Source: Acidobacteriota bacterium (GTDB lineage Bacteria; Acidobacteriota; Thermoanaerobaculia; Thermoanaerobaculales; Thermoanaerobaculaceae). From it: DNA of 57,919 bases. Position numbers and translations under genes: made by a program. Every line of letters starts with the position of its first letter. The first letter of the stretch is position 1. Below are positions 30,566 to 45,641 of this stretch, in pieces. The stretch spans positions 1 through 57,919 of the forward strand of contig SCRJ01000170.1 of NCBI GenBank assembly GCA_004298115.1, given 5' to 3'. The notes under the pieces were generated by a model. It had not been told where the DNA came from. It ran no database searches and saw only the letters and a program-made list of their open reading frames with translations.

Positions 30566-31729
30566 ATGGGCAACCTCGCAGCCGAAATCGATCCGATGGC
30601 CGGCACGCTGGTGGAGTGGCGGCGCGATTTCCACCGCCACCCGGAGCTTGCGTTCGAGGAGCGGCGCACGTCGGCCGTGGTCCGAGCGTTCCTCGAGTCC
30701 CTGGGGATCGAGGTCCGAGCCTGCGGCCGCACCGGGCTGCGCGGCGTCCTCCGCGGCGGACGGCCGGGCCGAACCGTGGCGCTGCGGGCCGACATGGACG
30801 CGCTGCCGGTGGCCGAGATCGCCGATCACGACTACGCCTCCGAAAACCCCGGCGTCATGCACGCGTGCGGCCACGACGGCCACATGGCGATCCTGATGGG
30901 GGCCGCCAAGGTGCTGGCCTCCCGGCGGCCCACGCTTCCCGGGACCGTCGTGTTCCTCTTCCAACCGGCCGAGGAGAACCCGCCGGGCGGCGCGGCATTG
31001 ATGATCGAAGAAGGCGCCCTCGAGGGCGTCGAGAGCATCTTCGGGCTCCACCTCTGGCAGCCGCTGCCGACCGGCGTCGTCGGCCTGCGCGCCGGCGCGT
31101 CGATGGCCCAGGCCGACGATTTCGAGGTGGTCGTCCGCGGGCGCGGCGGCCACGCCTCGCAGCCGGACCTCACCGTCGACCCCGTCGTGGTCGCGTCCCA
31201 CGTCGTCGTCGCCGCGCAGACGATCGTCAGCCGGTTTACCGATCCTCGCCAACCCGTCGTCGTCTCGTTCACGACGGTGCACGGCGGCCGGATCCACAAC
31301 ATCATCCCGGACGAGGTCACGATGACCGGCACGGTGCGGACGCTCGACCCGGCAACGCAGCTCGCCGTCAGACAACGCCTCGGCGAACTCTCCGAGGCGA
31401 CGTGCCGGCTGTTCGGCGCGACCGCCGCGTTCACCTACAAGGAGGGCTACCCGCCGGTCATCAACGACGCCGCTTCGGTCGACCTCGTGCGCCGCGCGGC
31501 CGCGCTGGAGCTGGGCGGCGACGCCGTCAGGACCATTGCGCCGGCCATGGGCGGGGAGGATTTCGCCTACTACCTGCAGCGCGTCCCCGGAGCGTTCGCG
31601 CTGCTGGGGATGGGCGACGACCGACCCCACCCTCACCACAACGCCCGCTTCGACATCGACGAGACCATGCTGCCGGTCGGCGTGCGGCTGATGACGGCGG
31701 TGGCGCTCGAGATGCTGCAGCCGGCGTGA
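30566..31729 (+). CDS. M20D family amidohydrolase (hippurate/N-acyl-amino-acid hydrolase type)
   Basis: Zinc-dependent hydrolase of N-acyl amino acids, 387 aa. HRHPELAFEE (residues 23-32), LRADMDALP (73-81), MHACGHDGHMA (Cys101, His103, His106) and MGGEDFAYY carry the metal ligands and catalytic acid of the M20D group. GGGAGGAGC lies a few bases before ATG 30566. With the symporter 26 bases upstream, an uptake-and-hydrolysis pair is plausible. It is not LysK: the M20D pattern (HPEL, CGHDGHMA) differs from the LysK/ArgE group, though a remote role in the lysine pathway cannot be excluded. Confidence 0.9.
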   Translation: MGNLAAEIDPMAGTLVEWRRDFHRHPELAFEERRTSAVVRAFLESLGIEVRACGRTGLRGVLRGGRPGRTVALRADMDALPVAEIADHDYASENPGVMHACGHDGHMAILMGAAKVLASRRPTLPGTVVFLFQPAEENPPGGAALMIEEGALEGVESIFGLHLWQPLPTGVVGLRAGASMAQADDFEVVVRGRGGHASQPDLTVDPVVVASHVVVAAQTIVSRFTDPRQPVVVSFTTVHGGRIHNIIPDEVTMTGTVRTLDPATQLAVRQRLGELSEATCRLFGATAAFTYKEGYPPVINDAASVDLVRRAAALELGGDAVRTIAPAMGGEDFAYYLQRVPGAFALLGMGDDRPHPHHNARFDIDETMLPVGVRLMTAVALEMLQPA

Positions 31730-38999: not shown

Positions 39000-39656
39000 T
39001 CAAGGCCAGAGGAAACGCTTGAGGATCGAGAAGGCTCGGTCCACGTCGTCCTTCGCGAGCACGATGGTCAGCTCGCCGTACGTCGAGACCACCTCCACCA
39101 CGTTGAGGCCGGCCAGCGCCAGCTGCTTGAGCAGGGTGTAGTGGACCCCCGGCGTCCGCACGCTCTTCGGCGGCAGCGGGATGACGATCGCCGAGAGGTC
39201 GTCGAGACGGCTCACCAGCTGCTCGGAGCCGAACGCCGTCTCGATGCGGCCCGCAAGCCGCGCGCTCGCGATCAGCGTCGCTTCGAACACCCCCTGCGTA
39301 TAGGTCAGGAACGCGTCCCGCTCCTTCGCGATGCTCAGCAGCAGGTTGCGATGACGCTCGAGCAGCGTGGGCGAGCTGCGGAAGGTGAACTCGACCAGGC
39401 TCGAGCGCACGGTGAGGTCGCGCATCTGGCGCAGCAGCTTCACGATCGAGCGGTCGTGCGCGGCGATCCGCGGGGCGAGGCGCTTCAACGCCATCATCAC
39501 GGCCGCGTCCGACACGCCCCTCCCCACGGCGCCCTCCACCTGCGGCCGCATGCGGCGCGCCAACGCGGAGAGGTTGAGGATGCCCGCGGCGAGCCCCTCT
39601 TCGAGCAGGGGCGACTCGCGAACCAGCTCCTCCACCACGACGGCCGTCGTCCGCAT
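39000..39656 (-). CDS. ACT-domain protein divergent from the lysW operon
   Basis: The 218-aa product ends with an ACT domain (VRTPGVHYTLLKQLALAGLNVVEVVSTYGELTIVLAKDDVDRAFSILKRFL), a fold that binds amino acids. The N-terminal half, with LEEGLAAGILNLSALARRMRPQVEGAVGRGVSDAAVMMALKRL, is a helical segment conserved with many ACT proteins of unknown role and could be a DNA-binding part. Position and divergence from the lysine pathway suggest a lysine-responsive regulator, which is inference. ATG 39656 is preferred over GTG 39716 because a good promoter (39664-39692) would start transcription right at 39656. Confidence 0.75.
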   Translation of the reverse strand: MRTTAVVVEELVRESPLLEEGLAAGILNLSALARRMRPQVEGAVGRGVSDAAVMMALKRLAPRIAAHDRSIVKLLRQMRDLTVRSSLVEFTFRSSPTLLERHRNLLLSIAKERDAFLTYTQGVFEATLIASARLAGRIETAFGSEQLVSRLDDLSAIVIPLPPKSVRTPGVHYTLLKQLALAGLNVVEVVSTYGELTIVLAKDDVDRAFSILKRFLWP

Positions 39657-39663
39657 CGCATAA

Positions 39664-39692
39664 AAATTAACAATTCGGACGATTTTCGTCAA
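39664..39692 (-). promoter_or_regulatory. Promoter of the ACT-domain gene
   Basis: On the minus strand, -35 TTGACG (39687-39692) and -10 TAATTT (39664-39669) are 17 bases apart. The expected transcription start, 7 bases after the -10, coincides with ATG 39656, so the mRNA is probably leaderless. This is one of the few AT-rich islands in the window. Confidence 0.65.
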
Positions 39693-39711
39693 TCCTTCTG
39701 AGAAATTTGAC
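39688..39711. promoter_or_regulatory. Candidate operator dyad between the ACT gene and lysW
   Basis: Arms GTCAA (39688-39692) and TTGAC (39707-39711) flank a palindrome TTCTGAGAA (39696-39704) with one central base. It overlaps the -35 of the ACT-domain gene and contains part of a TTGACA (39707-39712) facing lysW, so a bound protein could act on both directions. Confidence 0.45.
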
Positions 39712-39758
39712 AACACCCCGTGACCCGGTCGAACCTGCCACCGTCACTGGGGGGAAGA

Positions 39759-39935
39759 ATGAGTCCACTTCACAGTACTTGTCCGATCTGCGACGCGACC
39801 GTCGAGCTGCCGGGAGATGTGAGCGCATCGCAGGTGGTGCGCTGCGGCGACTGCGGCGCCGACCTCGAGGTGCAGGCGCTCGACCCGCCGGTGCTCGTCG
39901 AGGCCCCGGCGGAGGAAGAGGACTGGGGGGAGTGA
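39759..39935 (+). CDS. lysW: LysW amino-group carrier protein
   Basis: LysW protects the amino group of alpha-aminoadipate (or glutamate) during lysine (or ornithine) synthesis by carrying it on its C-terminal glutamate side chain. The 58-aa product has a zinc ribbon (CPIC at residues 8-11 and CGDC) and ends EEDWGE, the conserved LysW tail with the acceptor Glu. GGGGGGAAG lies just before ATG 39759, which is why the shorter start is chosen. The stop overlaps the next gene's ATG by one base. It is the first gene of the operon and faces the ACT-domain gene. Confidence 0.95.
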
Positions 39936-41113
39936 TGCTGCGCATCCTCGACAGCACGCTGCGCGAGGGCGAGCAGACGCCCGGCGTCTGCTTCGACGTC
40001 CACGTCAAGCTGGCGATCGCCGAGCTGCTCGCCGCGATCGGCGTGGACGTCATCGAGGCCGGCCACCCGGCGGTGACCGAGGAGATCCACCGGGCGGTCC
40101 GGGTGCTTGCCGGGCGCGGGCTCGCCCCGCTCGTCGGCGCGCACGCCCGCTCCCTGGAGGGCGACGTCGAAATGGCGCTCGAGTGCGGCGTCGGGTTCCT
40201 CGGCATCTTCTACTGCGTCTCGGAGACGCGCCTGGCCGATCGCGCGACCGACCTCGACGGCGCGGTCGCGCGGATCACCGCGGTGATCCGCCTCGCCAAG
40301 GCGCGAAAGCCGGACCTCGTCGTCCGCTACACGCCCGAGGACGCGGTCCGCTCGCCGTTTGAAAACGTCATGACCGCGGCCGCGGCCGCCTGCGCGGCCG
40401 GCGCCGACGTGATCAGCATCGCCGACACCACCGGCTACATGATCCCCGGCACCGACCGCAGCATGTTCGACTACATCACGCGCCTCAGGGCGGAGCTCGC
40501 CCTGCGGGGGTTCCAGCCGCAGATCGCGGTGCACTGCCACAACGACCGCGGCCTCGCCCTCGCCAACGCCCTCGACGCCATGCGCGCCGGCGCGGGCCTC
40601 ATCGACGCCTCGGTGCTTGGCCTCGGCGAGCGCGCCGGGATCGTGGACCTCGGCACGCTGCTCGCCGTGCTCGCGTCCGACTTCGGCCTCGCCGGTCGCT
40701 GGGACTTGACGCTGCTGCCGGAGCTGTACGAGCTCGTCAGCCGGTACGCCCGGGTGAGCGTCCCCGTCAACCTTCCGGTGACGGGCAGGAACGCGTTCAC
40801 TCACTGCGCCGGAGTCCACACCCAGGCGGCGGTGCGCAACCCGCTGCACTACCAGAGCCTCGACCCGGCGATCGTGGGCCGCGCACCCGAGATCGCGCTC
40901 GACCACATGGCGGGGATGGCGTCGCTGCGGTTCTCGCTCGAGCGCATCGGCTACGGCGACCTCCCGGACGAACTCGTCCGTTCGCTCCTGAAGCGCGTCA
41001 AGGAGGTCGGCGAGAGCGGCCGCACGGTCGACCTCGACGAGTTGCTCCTCATCGTGCGCGCCGCGCTGGAGCGGGACGCCCGGGCAGATCGCGTCGAGAG
41101 GCTCGCGTCATGA
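39935..41113 (+). CDS. Homocitrate synthase-like enzyme (2-isopropylmalate synthase family)
   Basis: The 392-aa product has [14 protein letters not shown] (residues 5-18), with the catalytic Arg and metal-binding Asp of the DRE-TIM metallolyases, and [12 protein letters not shown], the metal-binding HxH motif. Within a LysW operon this is most likely homocitrate synthase, condensing acetyl-CoA and 2-oxoglutarate. Isopropylmalate or citramalate synthase is possible on sequence alone. It lacks the long C-terminal regulatory domain of LeuA. ATG 39935 overlaps the lysW stop, and the end overlaps lysX by 4 bases. Homoaconitase and homoisocitrate dehydrogenase genes are not in this window. Confidence 0.88.
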
Positions 41114-41958
41114 GGGTCGGGTTCCTCCACTCGCTCATCCGCAAGGAGGAGAAGCTGCTCCTCGACGAGCTGGCGACCCGGTCGGACGTCGAGGTCGTGA
41201 TGATCGACGACCGCGAGATCACCTTCACGCTCGGCCAGGCCCGCCGCGATCTCGACGTGGTGCTGGAGCGCTGCATCAACCACTCGCGCGCCCTCCACGC
41301 GCTGCGCTTGTTCGAGAGCCAGGGCGTCGCGTGCGTCAACACCTCGGCGGTCGCGGCGACGTGCGGCGACAAGCTGCTCACCTCGATCGCGCTCGGCGAG
41401 CACGGCGTGCCGCAACCCGAGGTACGCGTCGCGTTCACGCCGGAATCGGCGATCGGGGCGATCGAGGCGATGGGCTACCCGGTCGTGCTCAAGCCCGCGG
41501 TCGGCTCGTGGGGGCGGCTGCTCGCCAAGGTCAACGACCGCGACGCCGCCGAGGCGCTGCTCGAGCACAAGACCACGCTCGGCTCCTACCACCACTCGGT
41601 GTTCTACATCCAGAAGTACGTCGCCAAGCCCGGCCGCGACATCCGCGCCTTCGTGGTCGGCGACGAGTGTGTGGCGGCGATCTACCGCAACTCCGAGCAC
41701 TGGATCACCAACACCGCCCGAGGCGGGTCGGCGACGAACTGTCCGATCACGCCGGAGCTGGCGGCGATCTCGCTCGCCGGCGCCAGAGCGGTCGGGGGCG
41801 GCGTGGTCGCGCTCGACATCTTCGAGTCCGACGCCGGGCTTCTCGTCAACGAGGTGAACTACACGATGGAGTTCAGGAACTCGATCGCGCCGACGGGCGT
41901 CGACATCCCGGCCAAGATCGTGGACTTCGCGCTGGCGCGCGCCCGGGTGCCGGCGTGA
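41110..41958 (+). CDS. lysX: LysX, LysW-alpha-aminoadipate ligase (RimK-type ATP-grasp)
   Basis: Joins the amino group of alpha-aminoadipate to the gamma-carboxyl of the LysW C-terminal Glu using ATP. The 282-aa product has an ATP-grasp core ([20 protein letters not shown], then IRAFVVG and [24 protein letters not shown] with the metal-binding Glu/Asn). The TGVDIP stretch that follows is like bacterial LysX enzymes. ATG 41110 overlaps the upstream gene by 4 bases and the stop overlaps lysY by 4 bases. Substrate choice (aminoadipate or glutamate) cannot be proven, but the homocitrate-synthase-like gene argues for lysine. Confidence 0.93.
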
Positions 41959-43001
41959 GCGCGGTCCCGGTCGCGATCGTCGGCGCCTCGGGCTACGCGG
42001 GCGGCGAGCTGCTCCGCCTGCTCCTCGCCCACCCCGGCGTCGAGGTGCGACAGGTCACCTCGGAGAGCCGCGCCGGCGAGCCTGCCGCAGCGGCGCACCC
42101 CAACTTACGCCGTCGCACGACACTCACGTTCTCCCGGATGGACGACCTGCACCCCTGCGACACGGCATTCCTCTGCCTCCCGCACGGGCGGACGGTCGAG
42201 GTCATCGACGGCGTGCTGGCGCGATCGGAGCGGGTCATCGACCTCTCCGCCGACTTCCGCCTGCGCCGCGCCGAGGACTACGTGCGCTGGTACGGCTTCG
42301 CCCACCCCCGGCCCGACCTGCTCGGCGCGTTCGTCTACGGCATCCCCGAGTTGCACCGCGAGGCGATGCGCGGCGCGCGCCTGGTCTCCAGCGCCGGCTG
42401 CAACGCGACCGCGGTGATCCTGGCGCTCCACCCGCTGTTCAAGCACGGGGTGGCCGACACCCGCTGCACGGTGGTCGAGGCCAAGGTCGGGTCGAGCGAG
42501 GGCGGCGCCGGCGTCTCGCCCGCATCGCACCACCCGGTGCGCGCCAACTGCGTGCGCTCGTACAAGCCCACCGGCCACCGCCACACCGCGGAGATGCTGC
42601 AGGAGCTGGGGCTATCCGGCGACTCCCGCATCCACTTCTCGGCGACCGCGGTCGACCTCGTGCGCGGCATCCTCGCCACCTGCCACGTGTTCCTCAACAA
42701 CCGCGTCGACGAGAAGCAGATCTGGAAGCTCTACCGGCAGGAGTACGGCGCCGAGCCGTTCGTCCGCATCGTCAAGGAGCGCGACGGGGCGTTCCGGTAC
42801 CCGGAACCGAAGCTGCTCGCCGGCACGAACTTCTGCGACATCGGCTTCGAGCTGGACGGTGACGGCAACCGCCTTGTCGTGATGAGCGCACTCGACAACC
42901 TGGGGAAAGGCGCCGCGGGCCAGGCCGTGCAGGCGTTCAACCTCATGCACGGCCTCGACGAAACGGCGGGCCTGGGGTTCGCCGGCCTTCATCCGGTGTG
43001 A
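41955..43001 (+). CDS. lysY: LysY, LysW-aminoadipyl-phosphate reductase (ArgC-like)
   Basis: NADPH-dependent reductase that converts the acyl phosphate on LysW to the semialdehyde. The 348-aa product has the Rossmann start [26 protein letters not shown] and [16 protein letters not shown], whose Cys is the catalytic thiol of the ArgC family; [13 protein letters not shown] is the second conserved region. It could also act in arginine synthesis as in some thermophiles with one LysW set. GTG 41955 overlaps the lysX stop (GTGA). The gap to the next gene is 3 bases. Confidence 0.93.
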
Positions 43002-43004
43002 GCC

Positions 43005-43643
43005 ATGTGCCGCCTGCTTGCCGTCAAGGACCGTACGCCGTTCGCGATCGCGCCGCTGCTCGGTGCGTTCGCCGCGATGGCGCGCAGCAGCCGCGAGTAC
43101 CAGGGCGACGGCTGGGGTTGCGCCTGGCGCGGCGCCACCGGCTGGCAGGTCTACCACAGCCTCGCGCCGGTCTGGGACGACGACGCCCGGTCGTTCGGCG
43201 AGACCCGCCTGCTCGTCGCCCACGCCCGCTCGGCGTTCCGCAACGAGGGGATCGTGGTCGAGAACAACATGCCGTTCGCCGCCGGCGGGCTCGTGTTCGC
43301 GTTCAACGGCGAGCTGCACGGCGTGCGGATCCGCGAGGAGGGCCGCATCGGCGCCGAGAAGGTGTTCAACACGGTCCGCCGCCTGACGGGCGGCGATCTC
43401 CGGGCCGGCCTCGCTCGGGCGGCGGCGCTGATCCGCGCCCGCAGCCGTTACGTCAGGGCGATGAACGTCGTGCTGAGCGACGGCGAGCGGATCCTCGCCC
43501 ACTCGTCGTTCGCCGAGCGGCCCGAGTACTTCACCGTGCACGTGGCGGCCCGCGACGGCCGGGTCGCCGTGTGCTCCGAGCCGCTGCCCTGCGAGGATGG
43601 CTGGCGTCCCATCGACAACGGCGCCACGGAGGTGTTCGCGTGA
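43005..43643 (+). CDS. Class II glutamine amidotransferase-fold protein (YafJ/EgtC-like)
   Basis: The 212-aa Ntn-hydrolase starts MCRLLAV, so Cys2 becomes the N-terminal nucleophile after Met removal. QGDGWGCAW, VAHARSAF and NNMPFAAGGLVFAFNGELHG match the substrate-binding Arg, Asn and Gly motifs of class II enzymes. There is no synthase domain, so no ammonia acceptor is built in. The family includes EgtC, which cuts a gamma-glutamyl amide. Here it lies between lysY and lysZ with 3-4-base junctions, so it surely is part of the operon. No other pathway step needs glutamine nitrogen, so cleavage of LysW-lysine is a sound hypothesis. Confidence 0.88.
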   Translation: MCRLLAVKDRTPFAIAPLLGAFAAMARSSREYQGDGWGCAWRGATGWQVYHSLAPVWDDDARSFGETRLLVAHARSAFRNEGIVVENNMPFAAGGLVFAFNGELHGVRIREEGRIGAEKVFNTVRRLTGGDLRAGLARAAALIRARSRYVRAMNVVLSDGERILAHSSFAERPEYFTVHVAARDGRVAVCSEPLPCEDGWRPIDNGATEVFA

Positions 43644-44467
43644 TCATCGTCAAGATCGGCGGCGGCAAGTCGATCAACGTCCAGGGCATCGCCCGGGACC
43701 TGGCCGGCATCGGCGAGCAGGCGGTCGTCGTACACGGCGCCAACGCGGTCCGCGACGACCTGGCGGCCACCCTCGGCCGGGTCCCACGGGTGGTGACCTC
43801 GGCCTCCGGCGTCGCCAGCGTGTTCTCCGACCAGGCGGCGATCGACCTCCTGTTGATGGCCTACGCCGGCGCGCGCAACAAGCGGATCGTCGAGGCGATG
43901 CAGCAGGCCGGGGTCGACGCGGTCGGCCTTTGCGGGCTCGACGGGCGGGTCGTGCAGGGCCGGCGCAACCGCGGCATCCGCGTCGAAGCCGGAGGCAGGA
44001 CGTGCATCCTCCACGACCTCTCGGGCAAGCCGCAGTCCGCGAACGTCGCCCTGCTGCGCGCGCTCCTGGCGCTCGGCCACACGCCGGTGCTCACGGTGCC
44101 GATCGCCGACGAGACCGGCGCCGCGATCAACGCCGAGAACGACGACATCGTCGCCGTGCTGGCGCGCGACCTCGAGGCCGACACCGTTGTTCAACTCATC
44201 GAGGCGCCGGGGATGCTGCGCGACCCCGCCGACCCTGCCTCCGTGCTCGCCTCGCTCGGGCTCGAGGAGGTGGCGCGTTGGGAGGCGGCCGCCGGCGGGA
44301 GGTTCAAACGCAAGCTCATGGCGCTGCGCCGTCTCCTCGAAGGCCGCGCGCCGCGCATCGTGATCGCGGACGGCCGCGCCGAGCATCCGCTCGGCGACGC
44401 GCTCGCCGGGATCGGGACCGAGGTCCTGCCATCCGCGCTCGCGCGAGCGGGCGGTGAGCATGGCTAG
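43640..44467 (+). CDS. lysZ: LysZ, LysW-aminoadipate kinase (amino acid kinase family)
   Basis: Phosphorylates the side-chain carboxyl of aminoadipate (or glutamate) attached to LysW. The 275-aa product has IIVKIGGGKSIN at the start (phosphate-binding loop), VVVHGANAVRDDLA and VLTVPIADETGAAINAENDDIVAVLARDL, the nucleotide-binding strand of the amino acid kinase fold. It is ArgB-like but without extra regulatory domains. GTG 43640 overlaps the amidotransferase stop by 4 bases; the end overlaps lysJ by 8 bases. In the reaction order it acts before LysY. Confidence 0.93.
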   Translation: MIIVKIGGGKSINVQGIARDLAGIGEQAVVVHGANAVRDDLAATLGRVPRVVTSASGVASVFSDQAAIDLLLMAYAGARNKRIVEAMQQAGVDAVGLCGLDGRVVQGRRNRGIRVEAGGRTCILHDLSGKPQSANVALLRALLALGHTPVLTVPIADETGAAINAENDDIVAVLARDLEADTVVQLIEAPGMLRDPADPASVLASLGLEEVARWEAAAGGRFKRKLMALRRLLEGRAPRIVIADGRAEHPLGDALAGIGTEVLPSALARAGGEHG

Positions 44468-45641
44468 CCGACCCACCACCGACGCCGCGGCAACGCAGCG
44501 GGAGTTCATGGCGGACCTCTACGTCCGGCGGGGGCTGACGTTCACGCGCGGCGAGGGCGTCGAGCTCATCGGCGATACGGGCGAACGCTACCTCGACCTC
44601 ACGAGCAACTACGGCGTCAACATCCTCGGCTACGGGCATTCCGGGCTGGAAGCAGCGCTCATCGCGCAACTGTGTACTCTTCCGACCCTCCACTGCAGCT
44701 TCGCCAGCGACGTGCGGGCGCAGGCGTCGGCGGAGCTCGCGCGGCGGGTGAACCCGGCCGATCCCGGCCTCGTGTACTGGTCCAACTCCGGCGCCGAGGC
44801 GGTCGAGGCCGCGCTCAAGTTCGCAGCGATGGCGACGGGGAAGCGGCGCTTCGTCGCCTGCCGCGGCGCCTACCACGGCAAGACCCTCGGCGCGCTCTCC
44901 GCCACCTGGGGGGCGAAGTACCGCGAGCCGTTCGAGCCGTTGCTCTGGGAGTTCACCCATGTCGAGTACGGCGACCCCGCGGCGCTCGAAGCCGCTCTCG
45001 ACGAGGGCGCCGCCGCGTTCCTCGTCGAGCCTGTCCAGGGCGAAAGCGGCATCGTCGTGCCGCCGGAAGGCTACGTGCGCTCGGTGCGGCAGCTCTGCAC
45101 CGACCACGGGACCTTGCTGATCACGGACGAGGTGCAGACCGGCGTCGGCCGCACCGGGCGTTTCCTCGCCGCGGAGCACGAGGGCGTCGCGGCCGACATC
45201 GTTTGTCTGGGCAAGGGCCTGGCGGGCGGCATCCCGGTCGGCGCGACGGTCGTGACGCGGGCCGTCGGCGAGCGCCTCCAGCGCGGCGCGCACTCCTCCA
45301 CGTTCGGCGGCAACCCCCTGGCGCTTGCGGGCGTCCGCTTCGTCCTCGCCACGCTCGACGCCGCCATGCTCGAGCACGTCTCCCTCACCGGCGAGGCCTT
45401 CCTGGCCGCGTTGCGGTCGCTCGACCACGAGTTGGTGGTTGGGGCTCGGGGCCGCGGGTTGATGCTCGGCCTGGTGGTGAGCGACCGCCGTGACGACATC
45501 CTGCGCGGCTTGCAGAAGCACAAGGTGCTCGCCGTCCCCGCCGGCAGCCACGTCGTGCGCTTCCTGCCGCCGTACGCGATCGGGTCCGGTCACATCGACC
45601 GGGCGGTCATGGCGCTCGGCGACACCTTGCGCGGCTTGTAG
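44460..45641 (+). CDS. lysJ: LysJ, LysW-semialdehyde aminotransferase
   Basis: PLP enzyme that converts the semialdehyde on LysW to lysine (or ornithine) using glutamate as amino donor. The 393-aa product is a class III aminotransferase, ArgD-like: YWSNSGAEAVEAALKFA, EPVQGESGI, LITDEVQTGVGRTG and CLGKGLAGGIPVGA with the PLP-binding Lys at 252. ATG 44460 overlaps the lysZ stop by 8 bases; a GTG 6 bases earlier is possible. It is the last gene of the operon. The step after it, release from LysW by LysK, has no obvious gene here. Confidence 0.93.
   Translation: MASRPTTDAAATQREFMADLYVRRGLTFTRGEGVELIGDTGERYLDLTSNYGVNILGYGHSGLEAALIAQLCTLPTLHCSFASDVRAQASAELARRVNPADPGLVYWSNSGAEAVEAALKFAAMATGKRRFVACRGAYHGKTLGALSATWGAKYREPFEPLLWEFTHVEYGDPAALEAALDEGAAAFLVEPVQGESGIVVPPEGYVRSVRQLCTDHGTLLITDEVQTGVGRTGRFLAAEHEGVAADIVCLGKGLAGGIPVGATVVTRAVGERLQRGAHSSTFGGNPLALAGVRFVLATLDAAMLEHVSLTGEAFLAALRSLDHELVVGARGRGLMLGLVVSDRRDDILRGLQKHKVLAVPAGSHVVRFLPPYAIGSGHIDRAVMALGDTLRGL

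Follow-up and report, generated by a model that had tools for sequence, protein, structure and literature searches.

A protein of class II glutamine-amidotransferase fold that is encoded within LysW operons (hereafter GAT) represents a widespread family and is very probably the release enzyme that replaces LysK in LysW pathways. We consider it highly likely that GAT is a Cys-Ntn amidohydrolase whose target is the gamma-glutamyl amide at the LysW C terminus, where it would release lysine or ornithine in the place of LysK and would also mature LysW encoded with a terminal Gln. Somewhat less firmly, we think it likely that these are two jobs of one LysW-tail amidohydrolase at one bond position (i.e., release and Gln maturation), so that the attachment residue would drift freely between Glu and Gln and the carrier would often be made as a Gln-ended precursor.

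The LysW Operon and Its Amidotransferase Gene

The window (i.e., the whole stretch of DNA analyzed, 57,919 nucleotides) is a 57.9-kb contig (C34) of an Acidobacteriota draft genome of 3.97 Mb that is 96.4% complete. Seven genes run on its + strand in the order lysW-hcs-lysX-lysY-GAT-lysZ-lysJ, with overlaps of 1, 4, 4, 4, and 8 bases and a single gap of 3 bases, from lysY to GAT. Features of the LysW/AmCP pathway found here are a carrier with Zn-ribbon Cys and a C-terminal EDWG(E), and LysX, LysZ, LysY, and LysJ encoded within the operon. The amino-group carrier protein LysW (39759..39935; TIGR01206, 61.7 bits, cut-off 53.2; PF21344) ends in the tail EEEDWGE and is followed by a homocitrate-synthase-like gene, hcs (39935..41113), which has relatives among LEU1/2-isopropylmalate synthases and scores 302 bits with TIGR02146, under the cut-off of 413.6. 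The ATP-grasp LysW ligase LysX (41110..41958; TIGR02144, 344 bits, cut-off 275.6) keeps its GSWGR motif, and LysY (41955..43001) is an ArgC-type semialdehyde dehydrogenase (TIGR01850, 390 bits, cut-off 233.6). GAT itself (43005..43643) is a 212-residue protein of class II (Cys-Ntn) fold and a putative LysW gamma-aminoacyl amidohydrolase. Downstream lie the [LysW]-aminoadipate kinase gene lysZ (43640..44467; NF010659, 224.1 bits, cut-off 223) and the class III aminotransferase gene lysJ (44460..45641; PF00202; LysJ_Th_th, 305 bits, under the equivalog cut-off).

A preliminary description of this DNA had reported the same gene order, overlaps, and 3-base gap, had called the operon lysK-less, and had listed the amidotransferase motifs as intact. 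On re-reading of the window the coordinates hold, no M20-type LysK was found among the operon genes, and Met1-Cys2-Arg3, QGDGWG, HARSA, NNMPF, and FNGEL are all present in GAT.

Adjoining lysW on the - strand, a divergent gene (39000..39716) with weak DUF7523 similarity might encode a regulator of the LysW operon; its counterparts stand beside lysW in GAT-type operons at loci L041, L043, L045, L047, L048, L051, L123, L147, L168, L180, L184, and L234.

The Release Step in the Host Genome

The genome-wide search for lysK- or argE-like M20 genes that the preliminary description had proposed as a check returned no LysK over cut-off in the host genome (profiles TIGR01902/NF003367), among 15 M20-fold matches. 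The one closest to LysK, on another contig (C27), was ruled out as a hidden LysK: with 112 of the 363 bits required by the LysW-lysine hydrolase model and 91 of the 163 required by TIGR01902, it lies far under both cut-offs, and it belongs to a full arginine operon as its argE. That operon (L016, G000:C27:1-10016), its genes named from translations, reads argR-argG-DUF1611-argC-argD-carbamoyltransferase-argB-argE-argH, and its carbamoyltransferase is presumably of the N-acetylornithine type, which it resembles. The M20 gene within the window (about 30566-31729) was likewise rejected: its match to TIGR01891 (377 bits) marks it as an amidohydrolase and not LysK. Other classified M20 proteins of the host are CpsA-like amidohydrolase, PRK13983, YgeY-like, PepT-like, and glutamate-carboxypeptidase-like.

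A search of the host genome for lysA gave no match at all, and a homoaconitase is encoded over cut-off. Together with the separate arginine operon and its own argE, these findings leave the LysW operon as the only lysine route seen in the host; a release step is therefore needed, and no known enzyme for it is present. Lysine is the product indicated for the window operon by its own hcs gene, by the homoaconitase, and by the lack of lysA.

Distribution of GAT and LysK

Strong GAT matches (96–476 bits) occur in 11 of 396 genomes of the phylum, all inside LysW operons. Below 96 bits the matches in the 396 genomes fall to about 40 bits, and from there they are mostly generic GATase_4 proteins; the exception among the weak matches is a gene in genome G064, split by a masked stretch, which also lies in a LysW operon. 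Within operons GAT either separates lysY from lysZ or follows lysJ. One locus of that same genome (L051, G064:C70) carries LysX and LysY of the main GAT clade, yet its GAT, placed after lysJ, belongs to the other subtype (NQPF), suggestive of an exchange of GAT subtypes within the operon.

Across the 34 phylum genomes that have a full-length LysW match or GAT, 12 encode GAT, 20 encode LysK over cut-off, none encodes both, and two encode neither, so that the anti-correlation with lysK that had been proposed as a second check is realized as mutual exclusion. LysK operons in the phylum run lysW-X-Y-Z-J-K. The two genomes that lack both enzymes nest inside the LysK clade, and in one of them the LysW contig stops right after lysY. 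The other, which is 94% complete, has lysW-lysX-lysY followed by an unrelated Gfo/Idh/MocA-like oxidoreductase gene in the place of lysZ (L218, G074:C246). Many phylum genomes also encode small LysW-like zinc-ribbon proteins that match the LysW profile short of its EDWG tail.

Fisher's test on the 34-genome table gives p = 1.7e-7 before correction for relatedness, a value that overstates the evidence because evolutionary switches are few and genome counts are thus not independent. On trees of LysX plus LysY, two changes suffice to account for the GAT/LysK label. The trees support at least two independent switches between GAT and LysK, forced by their starred branches, with differing GAT subtypes and positions.

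Scanning of the GTDB collection yielded 243 GAT relatives, and the neighborhoods of the best 80 were read: all of these 80 adjoin lysX/Y/Z/J genes and none stands beside lysK, so the placement of GAT is not due to chance. The best 80 come from Acidobacteria, Calditrichota, KSB1, Ignavibacteria/Melioribacter, Gammaproteobacteria, Gemmatimonadota, Phycisphaerae, and Desulfobacterales, among others. Most genomes in the comparison are incomplete MAGs; LysK over cut-off was found in 0/50 genomes to which these best relatives belong, one of them represented by the complete Sulfidibacter corallicola chromosome, while controls scored over it, and in a single-contig genome with GAT (G010) no M20 reaches TIGR01902 at E 1e-10. 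The exclusion that marks an equivalent of LysK thus runs in both directions, with no LysK in GAT genomes (0/12 and 0/50) and no GAT in LysK genomes (0/20). A LysX search of viral contigs gave no match.

All GAT genomes in which M20 genes were examined in full retain some M20 peptidases, and an ArgE or YgeY-like M20 in them could in principle release lysine. One argE-like gene near an operon (at L197) was considered and set aside, being a 29% match about 3.6 kb past lysJ; the apparent absence of lysY at this locus is masked sequence. As a general marker, lysA does not separate the groups, being found in many GAT and many LysK genomes, and the operon there may hence make ornithine or another product. 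Many of the GAT-type LysW operons in Gammaproteobacteria and Gemmatimonadota (L126, L130, L150, L169, and similar loci) lack hcs. Most of their genomes have lysA, and these operons may make ornithine or another amino acid.

The C-Terminal Residue of LysW

LysX couples the amino group of its substrate to LysW through the gamma-carboxylate of the terminal Glu in the EDWGE motif (PMC10433800, PMC9303977). Given this reaction, a LysW that ends in Gln is not expected to be loadable by LysX until its gamma-amide has been hydrolyzed. Gln-ended LysW is nonetheless encoded in half of the GAT operons (34 of 68), against none of the 43 operons that lack GAT. The 43 tails of the latter, all Glu, come from 16 LysK and two unresolved Acidobacteriota loci, 24 Planctomycetota loci drawn from a separate sample of 392 genomes, and one Deinococcus locus; the only GAT genome in the 392-genome sample, which is the sample centre, has the LysW tail WGQ. 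Near relatives differ in this residue, e.g., EEEDWGE in the window and EEDWGQ in its closest relative (L123), and WGQ-ended LysW is seen at GAT loci across L123-L202 and L040-L051. On a tree of 117 loci the last residue of LysW changes at least 12 times on the GAT side and not once on the other, even though their branch lengths are close (16.5 and 16.3); the chance of all 12 changes falling on the GAT side is p about 3e-4.

Gln-ended LysW suggests, at the level of sequence, that GAT acts on the carrier tail. Cleavage of LysW-gamma-Lys takes place at the same carbonyl as hydrolysis of the Gln gamma-amide, which is also the position at which LysK acts, so the Gln tail would be explained if GAT acts there. 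The same tails, found in half of GAT operons, and the M20 genes present in those genomes would also suit a narrower role, in which GAT does no more than mature LysW by deamidating its terminal Gln to Glu, and release of the amino acid falls to an ordinary ArgE-like M20 peptidase. We regard this as improbable: Glu-ended LysW, which needs no deamidation, is encoded in the other 34 of the 68 GAT operons, that of the window included, and GAT is kept there, so deamidation alone cannot be why it is kept. Moreover, the place of LysK is empty exactly where GAT is present, and no M20 passes the LysK cut-off.

GAT Fold and Key Residues

GAT scores 31.9 bits with Pfam GATase_4 (PF13230; cut-off 23), and its nearest named relative is from an Acidobacteria MAG (PKYI01000033.1, 91% identity). 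The preliminary description had likened it to EgtC, a comparison that stands for the fold and fails by score. EgtC (TIGR03442) is the sole NCBIfam match, at 48.3 bits against a cut-off of 218.7, and by score GAT is not EgtC; at the same time, EgtC is the first PDB match for a profile of 11 GAT relatives, and the 13 top PDB matches of an AlphaFold2 model of GAT (49 sequences; mean pLDDT 92.5, pTM 0.90) are EgtC chains (TM about 0.8), with the GlmS and PurF glutaminase domains ranking lower. The marks of the class II (Cys-Ntn) fold are present in GAT, namely a Cys after Met, the Ntn fold, H-x-R, and NG. In the aligned family C2, R75, N101, and G102 are invariant, and NxPF is also kept.

Three positions set GAT apart from generic amidotransferases. 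Their HNG is FNG in the GAT family, their HPF is MPF or QPF, and the aligned position of the (T)DS(E)/VDS Asp, which generic amidotransferases and EgtC have, is taken by Gly116 in 65/65 aligned GAT members and also in the diverged subfamilies. In GlmS and PurF structures this Asp binds the free alpha-amino group of glutamine, and GAT thus lacks a residue expected of a glutamine-using amidotransferase. Arg73 of PurF contacts the alpha-carboxylate of the ligand in class II amidotransferases (PMC7953260). Retention of the Arg with loss of the Asp is what would be expected of an enzyme of the LysW tail, as the last Glu of LysW has a free alpha-carboxylate and its alpha-nitrogen lies in the peptide chain.

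These residues bear also on the reading that fold and Pfam family (i.e., class II glutamine amidotransferases) would by themselves invite, that GAT supplies ammonia as an ordinary glutaminase or amidotransferase, or is a side enzyme of metabolism that travels with the operon. We hold this to be very unlikely: a synthetase domain is absent and the pathway has no ammonia-using step, the Asp that binds the alpha-amino group of Gln is an invariant Gly and the HNG and HPF motifs are altered, and GAT is tightly linked to the operon across many phyla.

Proposed Mechanism

From the operon and its distribution, the exclusion with LysK, the residue changes, and the Gln tails we infer the following course for a GAT that acts on LysW. 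Removal of Met1 would leave Cys2 N-terminal, and attack by Cys2 on the gamma-carbonyl of the terminal LysW residue would expel lysine (or ornithine in arginine-type operons), or ammonia from Gln-ended LysW. Hydrolysis of the resulting LysW-gamma-Glu thioester would then set LysW free. Where LysW is encoded with a C-terminal Gln, this acyl-enzyme route would deamidate it, and LysX could then load it. Arg75 (in HARSA), aligned with the alpha-carboxylate-binding Arg of PurF and GlmS, may hold the free C-terminal carboxylate of LysW, and the Asp would have given way to the invariant Gly116 because the alpha-nitrogen of LysW sits in a peptide bond.

A proofreading or recycling enzyme that clears mis-charged or stalled LysW, with another, unrecognized enzyme releasing the product, would likewise depend on the LysW tail and accept carriers that end in Gln, and is highly improbable since it leaves unexplained the absence of LysK from every GAT genome and of GAT from every LysK genome examined. 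Replacement of LysK by GAT, as the preliminary description had proposed, is thus supported as a predicted activity by the comparative evidence of exclusion, the Asp-to-Gly116 change, and the Gln tails.

Prior Reports and Implications

A Caldithrix genome paper notes a LysWXZYJ-Hcs locus and suspects non-orthologous displacement in lysine synthesis (PMC5317091). In the open-access literature we found no report of an EDWGQ or Gln-ended LysW and no published description of LysW joined with a class II amidotransferase. The pathway and the fold are known; their combination and the carrier biology apparently are new.

If GAT does release the product, it would supply the missing final reaction in the making of lysine or ornithine on a carrier protein for Acidobacteriota, Calditrichota, KSB1, Ignavibacteriota, Gammaproteobacteria, Gemmatimonadota, and Phycisphaerae, groups in which family models currently give only "class II glutamine amidotransferase" for this protein. 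It would also constitute a new way to hydrolyze a carrier-bound isopeptide, predict a Gln-ended carrier precursor, and correct predictions of lysine auxotrophy for many uncultured bacteria. The proposal makes single-residue predictions on each partner (i.e., Cys2 and Gly116 of GAT, and the terminal Glu/Gln of LysW).

Comparison with Known Systems

EgtC (PDB 4zfj/4zfk/4zfl) is the best match to GAT in fold and in NCBIfam. Both are of the Cys2 Ntn-hydrolase type and have the GWG, R-S-A, and NG motifs in common, and EgtC cuts a gamma-glutamyl amide, as is proposed for GAT. The two differ in that identity is about 22%, EgtC retains the VDS aspartate, and its substrate is small and carries its alpha-amino group free, whereas the partners of GAT are LysWXYZJ. 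Generic GATase_4 proteins (YafJ-like; PDB 3mdn, 1te5) and the GlmS/PurF glutaminase domains share the Ntn fold, the N-terminal Cys, the Arg of H-x-R, and the NG oxyanion motif, but they keep TDSE and HNG where GAT has Gly for Asp, and FNG.

LysK (TIGR01902, NF003367) resembles GAT in the proposed reaction, i.e., hydrolysis of the LysW gamma-glutamyl-lysine (or ornithine) isopeptide. It is, however, a metal-dependent M20 enzyme and GAT a Cys-Ntn one, so that with unrelated folds the exchange would be a non-orthologous replacement; LysW is always Glu-ended in the LysK operons sampled, unlike in half of the GAT operons. The LysW/AmCP pathways to lysine and arginine of Thermus, Sulfolobus, Deinococcus, and haloarchaea share with GAT operons homologous lysW/X/Y/Z/J, the EDWG tail, and the GSWGR motif of LysX; GAT operons differ from them in the putative release enzyme and in the carriers, half of which are Gln-ended.
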